The position numbers and the translations under genes are program-made. The notes beneath the pieces were generated by a model that saw nothing but the letters and a program-made list of their open reading frames with translations, had not been told where the DNA came from and did no database searches. From Burkholderiaceae bacterium (GTDB lineage Bacteria; Pseudomonadota; Gammaproteobacteria; Burkholderiales; Burkholderiaceae_C): DNA of 34,521 bases. The DNA lies in assembly GCA_016936875.1 (NCBI GenBank), contig JAFGXB010000222.1, positions 1 to 34,521 on the forward strand, given 5' to 3'. Positions 21,936 to 31,875 of this stretch are shown here, piece by piece (the stretch's first letter is position 1; each line of letters starts with the position of its first letter).

Positions 21936-22214
21936 TTACTGCAACGCGGCCGACGCAGCGGCAAACGTGCAGGCGCAATGCCCGTCCGCCCGCGGCACCT
22001 CGCAACCCAGCGTCAACCAATAGGCGGCCAGGCGGCGGCAGACGATGCTCATTTCCGCACTGATTTGCGGATGCTGCTGCAAGGTTTGCAGATTGCGGCC
22101 AATTTTCTGGATGGCCGCCACGCTGGGCTTGTCGGCGTAAAACGTCATCAGCGCCAATGTTCCCGCCAGGAATGGCTCGGCGGAATCCGTCCTGTTTTCT
22201 GGTGTATTCGGCAT
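21936..22214 (-). CDS. Hypothetical small protein downstream of hemP
   Basis: MPNTPENRTDSAEPFLAGTLALMTFYADKPSVAAIQKIGRNLQTLQQHPQISAEMSIVCRRLAAYWLTL; same strand as and close to hemP. Confidence 0.55.
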   Translation of the reverse strand: MPNTPENRTDSAEPFLAGTLALMTFYADKPSVAAIQKIGRNLQTLQQHPQISAEMSIVCRRLAAYWLTLGCEVPRADGHCACTFAAASAALQ

Positions 22215-22313: not shown

Positions 22314-22508
22314 TTATTTGGTCAAAATCAGCTTGTCCTGCCGAGTCAGGCGCAGTTGATAAGTCTGCCCCTGGTGGCTGATCTGCACCACCGCACCCTG
22401 CCGAAACAGCTCGCGCGAATGCAGCGTCAGCCCAGCGGCGGAGGCGTTTTTCGCTGGCGCGCCGCCCGGCACAGACCCCGGCAACTCCTTGCACAGCATG
22501 GTATTCAT
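22314..22508 (-). CDS. hemP: Hemin uptake protein HemP
   Basis: C-terminus QISHQGQTYQLRLTRQDKLILTK matches the HemP signature; start set at MNTMLCKEL. Confidence 0.85.
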   Translation of the reverse strand: MNTMLCKELPGSVPGGAPAKNASAAGLTLHSRELFRQGAVVQISHQGQTYQLRLTRQDKLILTK

Positions 22509-22582
22509 CGTGACCACTCCATCACGGCCCAGGTCAGCACGAGCACGGCCAACAAACTGAGCCCAAGTTCTGCATATCCCAT
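22505..22582 (-). CDS. Candidate 25-aa single-TM microprotein overlapping hemP (MGYAELGLSLLAVLVLTWAVMEWSR)
   Basis: ATG preceded by GGAGGGTGAGATCG; stop TGA overlaps hemP ATG (ATGA); below the ORF-track length cutoff. Confidence 0.6.
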   Translation of the reverse strand: MGYAELGLSLLAVLVLTWAVMEWSR

Positions 22583-22675
22583 CGATCTCACCCTCCAAGA
22601 AGCCATGACACCCTGGCACCATCGGCTGGGGACACATCACGCGCCCACAGGGCAGCGCGATGGAGACATCTTATT

Positions 22676-22694
22676 GCGAATAATTCTTATTTGT
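22676..22694 (-). promoter_or_regulatory. Candidate Fur box (ACAAATAAGAATTATTCGC on minus strand)
   Basis: 11/19 match by eye to GATAATGATAATCATTATC; AT-rich patch upstream of hemP in a GC-rich genome. Confidence 0.6.
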
Positions 22695-24545: not shown

Positions 24546-27500
24546 ATGTCCGCCAGTCTGACAAGTCTTTCCCCAGAAAACGCCCCACCGCAGAATGCGC
24601 CGACGGCGCTGTTCGCGTTGAGCCAGACGCAGCAAGACATTTTGTTGCGCCAGGAATTGCTCGGCAGCGCCATTTACACCATCGGCCTGACCATCTCCAT
24701 CGACGGCGCTCTGGACGTTGCCCTGCTGGAGCGCGCCATACAGGATGTCGCCGCCGCAGAACCCATGCTGCGCGCCCGGGTGAGCGCAGCGCCAAACGAT
24801 GCGGGCCCGCACTGGCAAGTCTCCAGCGCACTGCCTTGGCGCCTGCACTACACCGACAGCTTCGCCCAGACCGGCTCCCCGCCGCTCGCGGCCCAGCACG
24901 CTGCGCGCCATATCGCCACGCTCAAGGCCGACGGCATCGACCCCGCTGGCCCAGCGCTCTGGCATATGGCCCTGTTCCGCACCGGCCCGGCGCGCTATGA
25001 ATGGCTGCTGCGCTTCAACCACGTTCTCCTCGACGGCTACGGCGTCATGCTCGTTGGTCAGGGCATCGCGCGCCGCTACAACGCCCTCTTGCGCGGCGAA
25101 ACCGCCGCCCTGGAGCCCGGCCCCGATTACGCCCGCTTTGTGGAACGCGAGCGCAACTACCTGCAGTCCCCCCGCTTTACGCGCGACCAGGCGTTCTGGC
25201 AAGCCAGCATGCCCCAGACTGACGCCTGCGCCAGCGCGTCTGCCGCGCCCGATCTGCAGGCACCGCCCACTCCGGTGCAACACCGCTGGTTGGTTCGCAC
25301 ATCGCCATGGCAGCGTTACCTGCAGTGGGCCGCGGCACAGGGCCTGTCCCCCGCGCAGGGGATGATTTTTTTCCTCGCCACCTATCTGGCCAAAGTGTCG
25401 GGGCAGACCGACATCCTGATCGGCATGCCGCTGCACAACCGCAAGGACGCCATCGACAAGCACACCGTCGGTCTGTTCACCAACACCCTGCCCCTGCTCC
25501 TGCACGCCAGCGCCTGCGCCACACTGCCGGATTTGATGCGCGCCCTGGCCGAAAACACCCGGCAGGTTCTGCGCCATCAACAGTATCCGCTCGACCGCAC
25601 ACTCACGCGCCAGCCACCCCGGCAAGGGGTTGCCGGCATGCATTTCGACCTGATGGTGTCGTTCGAGGATTTCGACCCGCGCACCACGCTCGGCACGGCG
25701 CGGCTCACCTTCGCCCCGTTCAGCGGCCATCCGGGGTTTGCCCCCGTCGCCGCCTACATCCGGCAATACGGAGACGCCGAACAACTCCCCATCGACCTCG
25801 TCCTCGACCCCAGGGCGCCCGCCGCCTTGCGGCACACCGCCTTCCTCTCCGAGCGGCTCGACCAGCATCTGGCCGAACTGCTCGCGCACCCGGACCGCAC
25901 CCTGGGCGAGCACACGGTGCTCTCGCCGAAAGAACGCGCCGCGCTGCACGCCCTCCAGCCCACCGCCCGGCCGCGCCCGCAGCCGCAATGCCTGCATGCG
26001 CTGGTCAGCGAGCAGGCGCGCCGTACTCCGGCGGCTTGCGCCGTCCAGTTCGGCACGGTCAGGCTGCGCTATGCCGAGCTGGAGCAGGCGGCAAACCATC
26101 TGGCGCACACTCTGCGCGGCCTTGGCGTCGGCCGCGACGTGCTCGTTCCCGTGATGATGGAACGCCGCCCGGAACTCGTTGTGGCGCTGCTCGCCGTGCT
26201 CAAGGCCGGTGGCGCCTATGTGCCTCTCGATGCCGACGTGCCCACCGAGCGCCTGCGCCGCATCCTGCAAGACACCCAGGCGCAGATCGTGCTCACCCAG
26301 CCTGCGTTGCACCCGGCCATTCACGCCGCCAGCGCGCCGCAACGCCTGCACCTGCTCGACGCCGACATCCGGCCCACCGCCCCGGCCGATCCGCCGCCGG
26401 ACACCAGCACCGCCGACGATCTGGGCCTGGTCATCTTCACCTCCGGCTCCACCGGACAACCCAAGGGCGTGATGATTGCGCACCGCGCCCTGTGCAACCA
26501 CGCACTGTGGAATGTGGAGGCCGTGACGTTCGGGCCGCACGACCGGCTGCTGCAAAAGTCTGCATTGAGTTTCGACGCCGCCGTCTCCGAATTTTTCGTT
26601 CCCCTGCTTTGCGGCGCTGCCGTCCATCTCGCCCCACCCGGCCTGCAACGCGATCTGCCCGCGTTGCTGCAAGCCGTCATCCAGCACGGCATCACCCACC
26701 TCACCCTGGCACCATCCACCGCAAAGGCCCTGGTCGATGACCCCGCGCTGCCCGCCTGCACCAGCCTGCGCTATGTGCAATTCGGCGGCGAGCCACTGGA
26801 GGCCACCCTGGCCGCGCGGTTCCAGCGCCTGCTTCCCCACGCCCAGTTGCTGAACTTCTACGGCCCGAGCGAAACCACGGAAGACAGCGCCCTGTATGTG
26901 GTGCCCGGCCCCATCACCCAGACCCACGGCACTCTGCCGGTGGGCCGCCCCATCGACAACACCCGCATCGATGTGCTCGACGCACAACTGCGGCAAGTCC
27001 CGTTTGATGTGACGGGCGAAGTCTGCATTGCGGGCGACGGCGTGGCGCGCGGCTATCTCGGCCAAGACGCGCTCACCGCCGAGCGCTTTCTGCCAGACCC
27101 TTTCGTGACCGGCGCGCGGCTGTATAAAACAGGCGATCTGGGGTATTGGTCAGCGGAGGGACAACTCCACATCACGGGGCGCAACGACGATCAAATCAAA
27201 ATCCGCGGCTTTCGCATCGAAATCGGCGAAATCGAGCGGCAACTCGCCAGCCATCCCGCCGTCGCGCAGGCAGCCGTCGTCCCCTGGATGGCCAGCGCGG
27301 ACGACCCGCAACTGGCCGCCTATGTCGTGCTGCGCGACGGGCAGGAGCACACCCCGCTCAGCGCCCTGCGGCAAACCCTGCAAGCCAGACTGCCCCACTA
27401 CATGATTCCCGGCGCCTGGCAAACCCTGCCCGCCATGCCGCTGACCGCCAGCGGAAAAATCGACAAACGCAGGTTGCCCGCCGCACAGCTTCACGCCGCG

Positions 27501-30500
27501 CCACAAGCGCAGCCGCGCCGCATGCCGCGCAGCCCGGTGGAACACACCCTGTGGGCCATCTGGAGCGAGGTGCTGCAGACCAACGACTTCGGCGTGGACG
27601 ATCACTTTTTCGACCTGGGCGGCCACTCGCTCACCCTCACCCAGGTACGCTCGCGCATCCAGGCGCGCTTCGGCCTTGAGCTGCCGCTGGCCGATCTGTT
27701 CACCCACCTGCGCATCACCGAGCTGGCGCAGCACATCGCGCAGCAGCAGCGCGGCAGCGGCCTCGCCGCCGCCATCTCCCCCGTGCGGCGCGACGCACCT
27801 TTGCCCGCCTCGCTGTCGCAACGCCGCATGTGGGTCACCCAGCATTTCCACCCGGAATCGGTCGCCTACAACGTCACCGCGTCCGTCCAGCTTCAAGGGC
27901 CGTTTGACGCCGCCTTGTTCCGCCAGGCCCTTGGCCTGCTCATCGCAAGGCACGAAGCCCTGCGCACCCGGTTTACCCTGGACGATCAGGAGCCGATGCA
28001 GATCATCCTGCCAAGCCTGCCCCCCGCGCTGGAGCACATCGATCTGCGGGCGCTGGAGCCCCATGCGCGCGAACCCGCCGCAAGGCAGGCGGCATCGACC
28101 CTCATGGCACAGCCGTTCGACCTGACCGTCGCTCCCCTCTACCGCGTCTGCATCATGCAGTTGAGCGAAGACGCCCATGTGCTGTTCTGGGTACTGCACC
28201 ACGCCATCGCCGACAACTGGGCGCTGGCCGTGCTCTCGCGCGACGCCATGCAGCTCTACGCCGGCCTATTGCAAGGCCAGACCGACCCGGCCGATATGGG
28301 GCTGCCCCCTCTGCAGATCCAGTACGCCGACTACGCCGCCTGGCAGCGCAGCGCCCCCGTCACCGCGGCGCGCGCAAGCCACCTTGCCTACTGGATGCAA
28401 CGCCTGCAAGGCATGCGCGATCTCCCCCTGCCCACCGATCACCCCCGCCCGGCGCAGCCCAGCTTCGCAGGCAAAACCCTGCACATCGCCCTGCCCGAGC
28501 CCCTCCAGCAAGCCCTGCGCCGCCACTGCGCCCGCCACGGCGTCACGCCCTTCATGCTGCTGCTGGCCAGCTTCAACGTGCTGCTCGCACGCATGACCCG
28601 CAGCACAGACATCGCCGTCGGCGCGCCCATCGCCAACCGTCACCATGCCGCCACCGAACAACTTGTGGGCACGCTGGTCAACACCCTGGTGATGCGCAAC
28701 ACGGTCGAGGCGAGCGCCAGCTTCGACCAGCTCATGCAGCAGGTGCGCCAGACCGCGCTGGACGCCTATGCGCACCAGGACGCGCCGTTCGACGAACTGG
28801 TCGAGCACCTTGCGGCCCAGCGGGCCGACCATCCGCAAGGCCTGGTGCGCGTGCTGTTCAATGTGCTCAACGCCCCCATCGGCAAACTGGCCGACGTGCC
28901 CTTCACCTACACCGCGTTCCACTTCGACCGCGTGGCGGCGCAGTTCGACCTGTCCATCCACATCGACACCGAGTTCACCCAGCGCATTTACCTCGAATAC
29001 GCCACCGAGCTGTTCAGCGCAGAAACCGCCCAGCGCCTGCTCGACAGCTATGTGTTCCTCACCGAACAGTTGCTCGCCCAGCCCGACCGGCCGCTGTCCG
29101 CCCACGCCCTGCTCACCCCGCCGCAGCGCGCCCTGCTTGCCCAGTGGAACGCCACCCAGGCCGACGACCCCGCTCACCGCACCCTGCCCCAATACCTGCA
29201 GCTCGACGCCGCAGACAAGCGCGACCGGCTCGCCCTCACCGACGCCCACGGACGCCATCTGCGCTACGGCGAACTGCACGCCCGCGCCCTCGGCATCGCC
29301 CATCTGCTGCGGCAGCAGGGCATCGGCCGCGGCGACCGCGTGGGGCTCTGCCTGGACCGCCAGGCCGACATGCTCGCCGCCCTGCTGGGCGTCCTGCACG
29401 CCGGCGCGGCCTATGTACCCTTAGACCCCGGATTTCCCATCGAACGGCTGCGTTACATGGCAGGCGACGCGCAGTTGCGCTGCATCCTCACCCAGACCGC
29501 GCTGCTGCCGCTGTTGGCCGACAGCAGCGCGCCACAACGCGCGCTCGACAGTCCCGATCTGGCCGCGCTGCGTGCCAACCTCGCCCCGCCTGCCGATCCC
29601 CTCCGCGACGCCCGGCCGGACGACCCGGCCTACATGATCTACACCTCCGGCTCCACCGGACAGCCCAAGGGCGTGCTCGTCCCGCACCGCGCTGTCGTCA
29701 ACTTTCTGCACAGCATGGCGCGCACGCCCGGCCTGCAGGCGGGTGACGCGCTGCTCGCCGTCACCACCCTGTCCTTCGACATCGCCGTACTCGAACTGCT
29801 GCTGCCCCTGGCCACCGGGGCGCGCGTCGTCCTGGCCGACCACGCACAGGCCCGCGACCCCTACGCCCTGCGCAACCTGCTGCAGAGCAGCGGCGCCACC
29901 GCGCTACAGGCCACGCCGTCCACCTGGCGCATGCTGCTCGAATCCGGCTGGCCCGGCAACCGGCAATTGCGCGCCTTCATCGGCGGCGAAGCCCTGCCCG
30001 CCGATCTCGCCCCACGCCTGCTGTCCACCTGCGCCGAAGTCTGGAATCTGTATGGCCCGACCGAAACCACCGTCTGGTCCACCTGCTGGCGCGTGCAGCC
30101 GCGGCAGCCCATCGTCATCGGGCGGCCCATCGCCAACACCCAGGTCTGGGTACTCGATCCGCAAGGCCAGCCCTGCCCCATCGGCACACCGGGCGAGATC
30201 CACATCGGTGGCGCCGGCGTGGCGCTCGGCTACTTCCAGCGCCCGGAACTCAGCGCCGAGCGCTTCATCCCCGATCCCTTCCGCACCGATGCCGCCGAGC
30301 CGACTCTGCAGACGCTCTACAAAACCGGCGACCTGGGTCGATGGCGGCATGACGGCCAGCTCGAACACCTCGGCCGCCTCGACCATCAAGTCAAGGTGCG
30401 CGGCTTTCGGATCGAGCTGGGCGAAATCGAAACCGCCCTGCGCGCGCAAGCCGGTGTCGCCACCTGCGTGCTCGCCACTTACGCCCCGGCAGCCGACGAC

Positions 30501-30965
30501 GTGCGGCTGGTCGCCTACGTCGTGGCCACGCCCGGCGTTGCCGCCCCGAAGCCTGCCGCATTGCGCCAGGCGCTGCGCGCTCGCCTGCCCGACTACATGG
30601 TGCCGCAACACATCGTGCTGCTCGACGCCCTGCCGCTGCTGCCCAACGGCAAGCTCGACCGCGCCGCGCTGCCTCCGCCCCAACACAGCACGGCCGCGCC
30701 CGAAACGCTCCGCACCGCCAGGCTGCCAGGCACTGCCGAGGAACTCCGCATCGCCGCCATCTGGCGCGATCTGCTGGGCGTGGAGCGCGTACTGCTCACC
30801 GACAATTTTTTCGACCTCGGCGGCCATTCCCTGCTGGCCATGCGCGCGGTCATCGCCATTGAGCAGCAGCTCGGCTGGCACGTTGCCCCGCGCCGCCTGA
30901 TTTTTGAAAGCCTGGGACAACTCGCCCGCCCCAGCGCAACCGCCGCCCAGCGCCAAACGGCCTGA
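24546..30965 (+). CDS. Dimodular nonribosomal peptide synthetase, C-A-T-C-A-T, no thioesterase
   Basis: Two A domains (IFTSGSTGQPKGVMIAH, IYTSGSTGQPKGVLVPH; YKTGDLG; ASGKIDKR, PNGKLDR), two T domains (DDHFFDLGGHSLTL, TDNFFDLGGHSLLAM), two C domains (RFNHVLLDGYG, LHHAIADNWA). Ends about 25 aa after the last T helices. Confidence 0.95.
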   Translation: MSASLTSLSPENAPPQNAPTALFALSQTQQDILLRQELLGSAIYTIGLTISIDGALDVALLERAIQDVAAAEPMLRARVSAAPNDAGPHWQVSSALPWRLHYTDSFAQTGSPPLAAQHAARHIATLKADGIDPAGPALWHMALFRTGPARYEWLLRFNHVLLDGYGVMLVGQGIARRYNALLRGETAALEPGPDYARFVERERNYLQSPRFTRDQAFWQASMPQTDACASASAAPDLQAPPTPVQHRWLVRTSPWQRYLQWAAAQGLSPAQGMIFFLATYLAKVSGQTDILIGMPLHNRKDAIDKHTVGLFTNTLPLLLHASACATLPDLMRALAENTRQVLRHQQYPLDRTLTRQPPRQGVAGMHFDLMVSFEDFDPRTTLGTARLTFAPFSGHPGFAPVAAYIRQYGDAEQLPIDLVLDPRAPAALRHTAFLSERLDQHLAELLAHPDRTLGEHTVLSPKERAALHALQPTARPRPQPQCLHALVSEQARRTPAACAVQFGTVRLRYAELEQAANHLAHTLRGLGVGRDVLVPVMMERRPELVVALLAVLKAGGAYVPLDADVPTERLRRILQDTQAQIVLTQPALHPAIHAASAPQRLHLLDADIRPTAPADPPPDTSTADDLGLVIFTSGSTGQPKGVMIAHRALCNHALWNVEAVTFGPHDRLLQKSALSFDAAVSEFFVPLLCGAAVHLAPPGLQRDLPALLQAVIQHGITHLTLAPSTAKALVDDPALPACTSLRYVQFGGEPLEATLAARFQRLLPHAQLLNFYGPSETTEDSALYVVPGPITQTHGTLPVGRPIDNTRIDVLDAQLRQVPFDVTGEVCIAGDGVARGYLGQDALTAERFLPDPFVTGARLYKTGDLGYWSAEGQLHITGRNDDQIKIRGFRIEIGEIERQLASHPAVAQAAVVPWMASADDPQLAAYVVLRDGQEHTPLSALRQTLQARLPHYMIPGAWQTLPAMPLTASGKIDKRRLPAAQLHAAPQAQPRRMPRSPVEHTLWAIWSEVLQTNDFGVDDHFFDLGGHSLTLTQVRSRIQARFGLELPLADLFTHLRITELAQHIAQQQRGSGLAAAISPVRRDAPLPASLSQRRMWVTQHFHPESVAYNVTASVQLQGPFDAALFRQALGLLIARHEALRTRFTLDDQEPMQIILPSLPPALEHIDLRALEPHAREPAARQAASTLMAQPFDLTVAPLYRVCIMQLSEDAHVLFWVLHHAIADNWALAVLSRDAMQLYAGLLQGQTDPADMGLPPLQIQYADYAAWQRSAPVTAARASHLAYWMQRLQGMRDLPLPTDHPRPAQPSFAGKTLHIALPEPLQQALRRHCARHGVTPFMLLLASFNVLLARMTRSTDIAVGAPIANRHHAATEQLVGTLVNTLVMRNTVEASASFDQLMQQVRQTALDAYAHQDAPFDELVEHLAAQRADHPQGLVRVLFNVLNAPIGKLADVPFTYTAFHFDRVAAQFDLSIHIDTEFTQRIYLEYATELFSAETAQRLLDSYVFLTEQLLAQPDRPLSAHALLTPPQRALLAQWNATQADDPAHRTLPQYLQLDAADKRDRLALTDAHGRHLRYGELHARALGIAHLLRQQGIGRGDRVGLCLDRQADMLAALLGVLHAGAAYVPLDPGFPIERLRYMAGDAQLRCILTQTALLPLLADSSAPQRALDSPDLAALRANLAPPADPLRDARPDDPAYMIYTSGSTGQPKGVLVPHRAVVNFLHSMARTPGLQAGDALLAVTTLSFDIAVLELLLPLATGARVVLADHAQARDPYALRNLLQSSGATALQATPSTWRMLLESGWPGNRQLRAFIGGEALPADLAPRLLSTCAEVWNLYGPTETTVWSTCWRVQPRQPIVIGRPIANTQVWVLDPQGQPCPIGTPGEIHIGGAGVALGYFQRPELSAERFIPDPFRTDAAEPTLQTLYKTGDLGRWRHDGQLEHLGRLDHQVKVRGFRIELGEIETALRAQAGVATCVLATYAPAADDVRLVAYVVATPGVAAPKPAALRQALRARLPDYMVPQHIVLLDALPLLPNGKLDRAALPPPQHSTAAPETLRTARLPGTAEELRIAAIWRDLLGVERVLLTDNFFDLGGHSLLAMRAVIAIEQQLGWHVAPRRLIFESLGQLARPSATAAQRQTA

Positions 30966-31014
30966 GCGCGCTGAACAACGCCGCGATGCCCGCGCCGTGC
31001 AGAGAGCCGCCAAT

Positions 31015-31875
31015 ATGAGCCCGCCCGGCATACCCGCCACCGACGCCCTTGGGCAGACCTTTGCCGCAGTCGGGGCGCAGGCGCGCATCGCCAGCCTGGT
31101 GCCCAGCCTCACCGAAACGCTGATTGCCCTCGGGCTGCAACAACAGCTCGTCGCCCGCACCGGGTTCTGCGTGCATCCACGCGCCGATGTCCGCGCCATT
31201 CCCAAAGTGGGCGGCACCAAAGACGTTCACCTGGACGCCCTGCGCGCACTCCAGCCCACGCATGTGCTGGTCAACATCGACGAAAACACCCGCGACACCG
31301 TGCAAGCGCTGCGGGCGTTCGTGCCTCAGGTCATCGTCACCCACCCGCAAAGCCCGCAAGACAACCTCGACCTGTTCGCGCTGCTCGGCACCACGTTCAG
31401 CGGCGTCCACGGTGTCGCATCACGCGCCGAGGCCTTCCGCCGCAACCTGCTTGCCGTATTGGACGATCTTCACACCAGCCGCTTTGCCGCGCGCAAGGTG
31501 CTTTACCTGATCTGGCGCGCCCCCTGGATGACTGTCGCCCGCGACACCTACATCAGCCGCAGCCTCGCCACCGTCGGCTGGCACACCCTTCCCGACGTGC
31601 TCGGCGGCGACGGCCTGCACCAGCCCGGCAGCACCCGCTACCCAAGCTTCGACTGGTCTGCAGACTGGCTGAACGCGGTGGACTGCGTGCTGCTCTCCAG
31701 CGAACCCTACCGTTTCGGCGCCGCACACGCCAGCGAGGTGCGCACTCTGCTCGCCGCCCGCGACCTGCACCCCGAGGTGCATTGCATCCCCGGAGAGTGG
31801 GCCAGCTGGTATGGCGTGCGCGCCATCGACGGCCTGCGGCAACTCGCCGCCACCGCACGCGCCAAGCATCCCTGA
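31015..31875 (+). CDS. BtuF/helical-backbone metal-receptor-like substrate-binding protein
   Basis: ARIASLVPSLTETLIALGLQQQLVARTGFCVHP...VPKVGGTKDVHLDALRALQPTHVLVNIDEN; no signal peptide visible from either start. Confidence 0.82.
   Translation: MSPPGIPATDALGQTFAAVGAQARIASLVPSLTETLIALGLQQQLVARTGFCVHPRADVRAIPKVGGTKDVHLDALRALQPTHVLVNIDENTRDTVQALRAFVPQVIVTHPQSPQDNLDLFALLGTTFSGVHGVASRAEAFRRNLLAVLDDLHTSRFAARKVLYLIWRAPWMTVARDTYISRSLATVGWHTLPDVLGGDGLHQPGSTRYPSFDWSADWLNAVDCVLLSSEPYRFGAAHASEVRTLLAARDLHPEVHCIPGEWASWYGVRAIDGLRQLAATARAKHP

Follow-up and report, generated by a model that had tools for sequence, protein, structure and literature searches.

A candidate membrane microprotein frame overlapping the start of hemP and confined to the genus Thiomonas

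Proteins of the HemP family are small, are controlled by Fur and regulate the genes of haem and siderophore receptors; their mode of action is disputed, with the protein viewed either as a direct transcription activator or as a post-transcriptional regulator (PMC9131926). The hemP gene of B. cenocepacia carries a Fur box (PMC7377471). Small membrane proteins with protein partners are described from other systems, a close parallel to the present case being Salmonella UgtS (34 aa), which is encoded upstream of ugtL, is experimentally proven and binds both UgtL and PhoQ (PMC8896665). CydX (PMC4325964), AcrZ (PMC7267776) and KdpF are, similarly, very small hydrophobic proteins that cross the membrane once and serve a larger membrane protein. 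Set beside these systems, the locus that we describe here, from a Thiomonas window of 34,521 nucleotides (the whole stretch of DNA that was analysed; source assembly of 2.84 Mb in 317 contigs), has a 25-codon frame, hereafter the microORF, that ends on the start codon of hemP and is predicted to encode a membrane peptide.

Layout of the hemP locus

The features of the locus are collected in Table 1. The original prediction had proposed a 25-residue minus-strand translation, a GGAGG Shine-Dalgarno ahead of it and a stop codon overlapping the start of hemP; the translation matched exactly, the Shine-Dalgarno was found in place, and the TGA stop of the microORF does share bases with the hemP ATG, in an ATGA at 22508-22505. 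The downstream gene had likewise been named correctly, as it is a true hemP by its match to PF10636, which scores 63.8 bits where 25 are required. Among Markov-random sequences, 3 of 3000 combined a start, a Shine-Dalgarno and a hydrophobic segment ending in ATGA, and the layout of the microORF exceeds chance.

Table 1. Features of the microORF-hemP locus, with positions in the window
Feature	Positions	Strand	Remarks
92-aa protein gene	21936..22214	-	probable third gene of the hemP operon; kept 3' of hemP in most Thiomonas
hemP, 64 aa	22314..22508	-	HemP/HmuP family; PF10636, E 1.2e-17
microORF, 25 codons, MGYAELGLSLLAVLVLTWAVMEWSR	22505..22582	-	predicted single-pass membrane peptide
Shine-Dalgarno GGAG of hemP	22517..22520	-	within microORF codons 21-22, 8 nt before hemP ATG
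Shine-Dalgarno GGAGG of microORF	22592..22596	-	9 nt ahead of microORF ATG
Possible -10 element TAAGAT, weak	22668..22673	-	read from sequence; similar in relatives
Fur-box-like palindrome AATAAGAATTATTCGCAAT	22673..22691	-	overlaps presumed promoter
NRPS gene	24546..31875	+	two modules, 2139 aa; interval also takes in the periplasmic-binding-protein gene that follows

The palindrome upstream of the microORF has 3 mismatches to AATGAGAATNATTCTCATT, with 0.01 matches expected by chance in the window, and the block ATTCGCAATA is invariant across 8 of 8 aligned Thiomonas genomes. By sequence, the microORF-hemP unit thereby carries, conserved in the genus, the promoter box by which a Fur regulon is recognised. 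A strict sigma-70 pattern scan found no promoter upstream of the microORF, and the leader between the Fur-like box and the microORF differs in length among Thiomonas genomes. Both the upstream Fur-like box and the first-cistron position that had been assigned to the microORF are conserved within Thiomonas.

Gene order in Thiomonas runs from a divergent NRPS gene through a diguanylate cyclase gene, the microORF, hemP and, in most genomes, the 92-aa gene to parB. The 92-aa protein is 74-84% identical across the Thiomonas genomes having the gene and is without a Pfam or NCBIfam match; in G003 and G006 the gene was not found at the place downstream of hemP. The NRPS has a condensation-adenylation-carrier set in each of its two modules and siderophore-synthetase-like matches, and a periplasmic-binding-protein gene comes next. 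The conserved position of the NRPS next to hemP in Thiomonas suggests a linked siderophore locus.

On the Kyte-Doolittle scale the peptide of the window reaches a best 15-residue mean of 2.4, and the corresponding values run from 2.25 to 2.63 in all 11 genomes that carry the frame, one hydrophobic stretch long enough to span a membrane being kept throughout; a single transmembrane helix is predicted from this one measure. The N-terminal side is acidic and the last residue basic, so the peptide would most likely lie N-out/C-in. Searches of Pfam, NCBIfam and the PDB, including the CydX, KdpF and AcrZ families, gave no sequence match to the peptide.

Conservation within Thiomonas and distribution beyond

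Thiomonas genomes carry hemP in 11 of 13 cases, and in all 11 the microORF stands at the same place with 25 codons, no indels and the same ATGA overlap, preceded at near the same distance by a GGAG-like element (11/11). Residues M1, G2, E5, L6, S9, L10, L16, T17, W18, M21 and E22 are invariant in these genomes and W23 is nearly so; at G2, L6, S9, L10, L16 and T17 the residue is fixed while its synonymous codons differ, and the core positions that vary remain hydrophobic. The ATGGAG of codons 21-22 is also invariant (11/11), and because the hemP Shine-Dalgarno sits there, the invariant Met-Glu cannot be counted as protein-level evidence.

A deletion scar at the microORF is seen in G007 (L261, G007:C33:57000-61500, near contig position 59145), which still has the Fur box, the leader and the Shine-Dalgarno together with the opening codons (MGYAEMGL). 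The rest of the microORF, hemP and the 92-aa gene are deleted as far as parB, and the junction leaves MGYAEMGLRTYPSLDKMAL, a short fused frame. In G009 the cyclase gene and parB adjoin directly, with the microORF, hemP and the 92-aa gene all absent. Since the microORF and hemP are adjacent, their co-loss in G007 counts as a single event and gives no independent proof of joint function.

A profile run against 300 genomes from the family and 249 from the order returned, outside Thiomonas, only background matches that were partial or lay within long frames. A one-pattern scan of all GTDB species gave 7 loci, all of them on contigs titled Thiomonas or in unclassified MAGs matching genomes of the genus, and a plasmid search for the microORF gave no matches. 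The check suggested by the original prediction was for a short frame that is kept, with synonymous bias, ahead of hemP across Burkholderiales; this held within Thiomonas, in all 11 genomes and with the low substitution ratio given below, but the frame was not found across the order. Judged by these searches, the microORF appears to be Thiomonas-specific and not general in Burkholderiales, and with no homologue found beyond the genus, no function is transferable to its peptide.

We examined 193 hemP loci, 11 of them from Thiomonas, and outside that genus the only convincing hydrophobic micro-frame ending beside a hemP start was that of g61 (three genomes), other scan matches near hemP starts being mostly Fur boxes read as protein, or frames that lack a credible start codon. 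The g61 peptide, from the same family (MWWLASLSVVVLGAWWALRSPR, 21-22 residues where it lies between bfd and hemP, 19-22 over all genomes carrying it, pattern MWWLASL.VV..GA.W.L), lies directly after bfd. Its frame is conserved in 5 genomes (G072, G182, G552, G551 and G259; L253-L258), with hemP next in three, while in G551 and G259 it follows bfd without adjoining hemP, and it is a possible second, bfd-linked membrane microprotein. Like the Thiomonas frame it is a hydrophobic micro-frame just ahead of hemP in a Fur-box-led operon, but it follows bfd and also exists apart from hemP, and homology between the two peptides is unsupported (3% probability in a profile comparison). That tiny membrane helices were added ahead of hemP at least twice, in Thiomonas and in g61, as regulators of the HemP type can cooperate with a peptide in the membrane that ties iron or haem uptake there to HemP activity, is a speculation that we consider improbable.

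Two further observations concern the region upstream of hemP. At one locus (L023, G130:C108) a Fur box and hemP are separated by MIVCVNHRVFDRDIAHAMRGGCGRARQPAEAV, a truncated bfd-like frame that seems to be what is left of a bfd gene after shrinking to the size of a leader. An exbD-like sequence, recognised by a simple motif, stands upstream of hemP at 39 of 86 family loci; the microORF as an exbD remnant was rejected, with no link found between the peptide and ExbD and with exbD of Thiomonas sitting elsewhere.

Selection on the frame and rival explanations

Pairwise pN/pS among the 11 genomes averages 0.38 in frame (0.31 with Jukes-Cantor correction), against about 1 in either of the other frames, and the silent sites of the microORF do differ (pS 0.33). 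Neutral simulations on the sequence tree (n=4000) kept the frame open with start and stop everywhere in 11 cases and gave a ratio as low in 8, with none achieving both. When the test was confined to codons 2-20, leaving out the end of the frame that doubles as the hemP Shine-Dalgarno, the ratio was 0.45; 90 of 4000 simulations fell as low, and 10 of the 4000 were also stop-free. We take the comparison as good evidence that the peptide is under selection, and we regard the coding status of the microORF as well supported; minus the hemP Shine-Dalgarno codons the coding signal, which comes from 11 related 75-nt sequences, is moderate. RNA folding at the microORF showed no excess stability (z -0.4 to +1.6), covariation there was not supported (term about 0), and no Rfam family reached cut-off for the region. 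With folding, covariation and Rfam all null, RNA structure was rejected as the cause of the conservation.

The main rival to a trans-acting peptide is a role solely in cis, whereby the frame brings ribosomes to hemP, through coupling or as a signal-sensing nascent-peptide or attenuation switch, and the released peptide is jobless. Such a leader would account for the overlap of the microORF stop with the hemP start and for the hemP Shine-Dalgarno inside the frame; a product of 25 codons is short enough to stay within the ribosome tunnel, and the tryptophans at positions 18 and 23 are conserved as noted above. Plain coupling, however, needs no amino-acid conservation in codons 2-20, the substitutions follow the pattern of a hydrophobic helix, no conserved RNA structure was found to serve as a switch, and HemP of related genera does without the microORF, and on balance we think a purely cis-acting leader unlikely.

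A chance or passively open frame, in which only the hemP ribosome-binding site is constrained and close relatives have lacked the time to lose the frame, would fit the position of the hemP Shine-Dalgarno in codons 21-22 and the restriction to one genus. Yet at the silent divergence seen here the frame is open and indel-free in 11 genomes, an outcome that the neutral simulations never matched, and this reading is disfavoured and, in our estimate, very improbable. A membrane-active peptide resembling the type I toxins, such as the size and hydrophobicity would fit in general terms, is scarcely credible given a good Shine-Dalgarno and a place as first gene of a hemP operon, an unusual setting for such toxins, and no Rfam match at cut-off.

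Proposed role and comparison with described systems

Our preferred reading, which we consider probable, is that the microORF is a genuine gene for a genus-specific 25-residue single-pass inner-membrane microprotein, first in a Fur-controlled operon with hemP second, made together with HemP by translational coupling and acting in trans. When iron is short, Fur would leave its box and the message would be made, after which ribosomes would load at the GGAGG and produce the peptide. On terminating at the ATGA they would restart at once on hemP, as the overlap and the hemP Shine-Dalgarno inside the microORF imply, such that the membrane peptide and HemP would be made together. By analogy with UgtS, which binds membrane proteins, and with other single-helix modulators, the peptide probably acts in trans, its target being, at a guess, a membrane protein that serves the uptake of iron or siderophores. 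The Fur-like promoter, the adjacency to hemP and the near-genus-wide retention make it a good candidate for a small helper of iron uptake, and the siderophore-type NRPS and the periplasmic-binding-protein gene nearby were counted in favour of the preferred reading.

Read in this way, the microORF extends the HemP system by a membrane microprotein that has evolutionary support and is apparently under iron control, and it lends itself to straightforward genetic testing in Thiomonas strains that can be cultured. Very short coupled frames before known genes are, moreover, recognisable from a dozen relatives.

Among described systems, the HemP/HmuP/ChuP operons of beta-proteobacteria have a Fur-controlled hemP, as in Thiomonas (PMC9131926; PMC7377471). 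Across the order, by contrast, the homologous frame is absent from the other hemP loci that were examined, about 180 in number, and at many of these hemP is immediately preceded by exbD or by a Fur box. The additional element known from Burkholderia is an sRNA, BrrF, which derives from the 3' end of hemP, rather than a frame ahead of the gene. The microORF peptide also differs from CydX, KdpF and AcrZ, with which it has no sequence match, in being confined to one genus. Similar in arrangement is UgtS, which is likewise a lineage-restricted, predicted inner-membrane small protein; its gene shares an operon with the regulator gene that it immediately precedes, and it answers to the regulator of that operon (PMC8896665). 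The start of UgtS, unlike that of the microORF, lies 164 nt before the ugtL start, the two genes have no ATGA overlap, and control is by PhoP and not by Fur; no sequence relation between the two peptides is claimed. With these likenesses and differences, the microORF fits a known kind, the lineage-specific, operon-encoded small membrane proteins.
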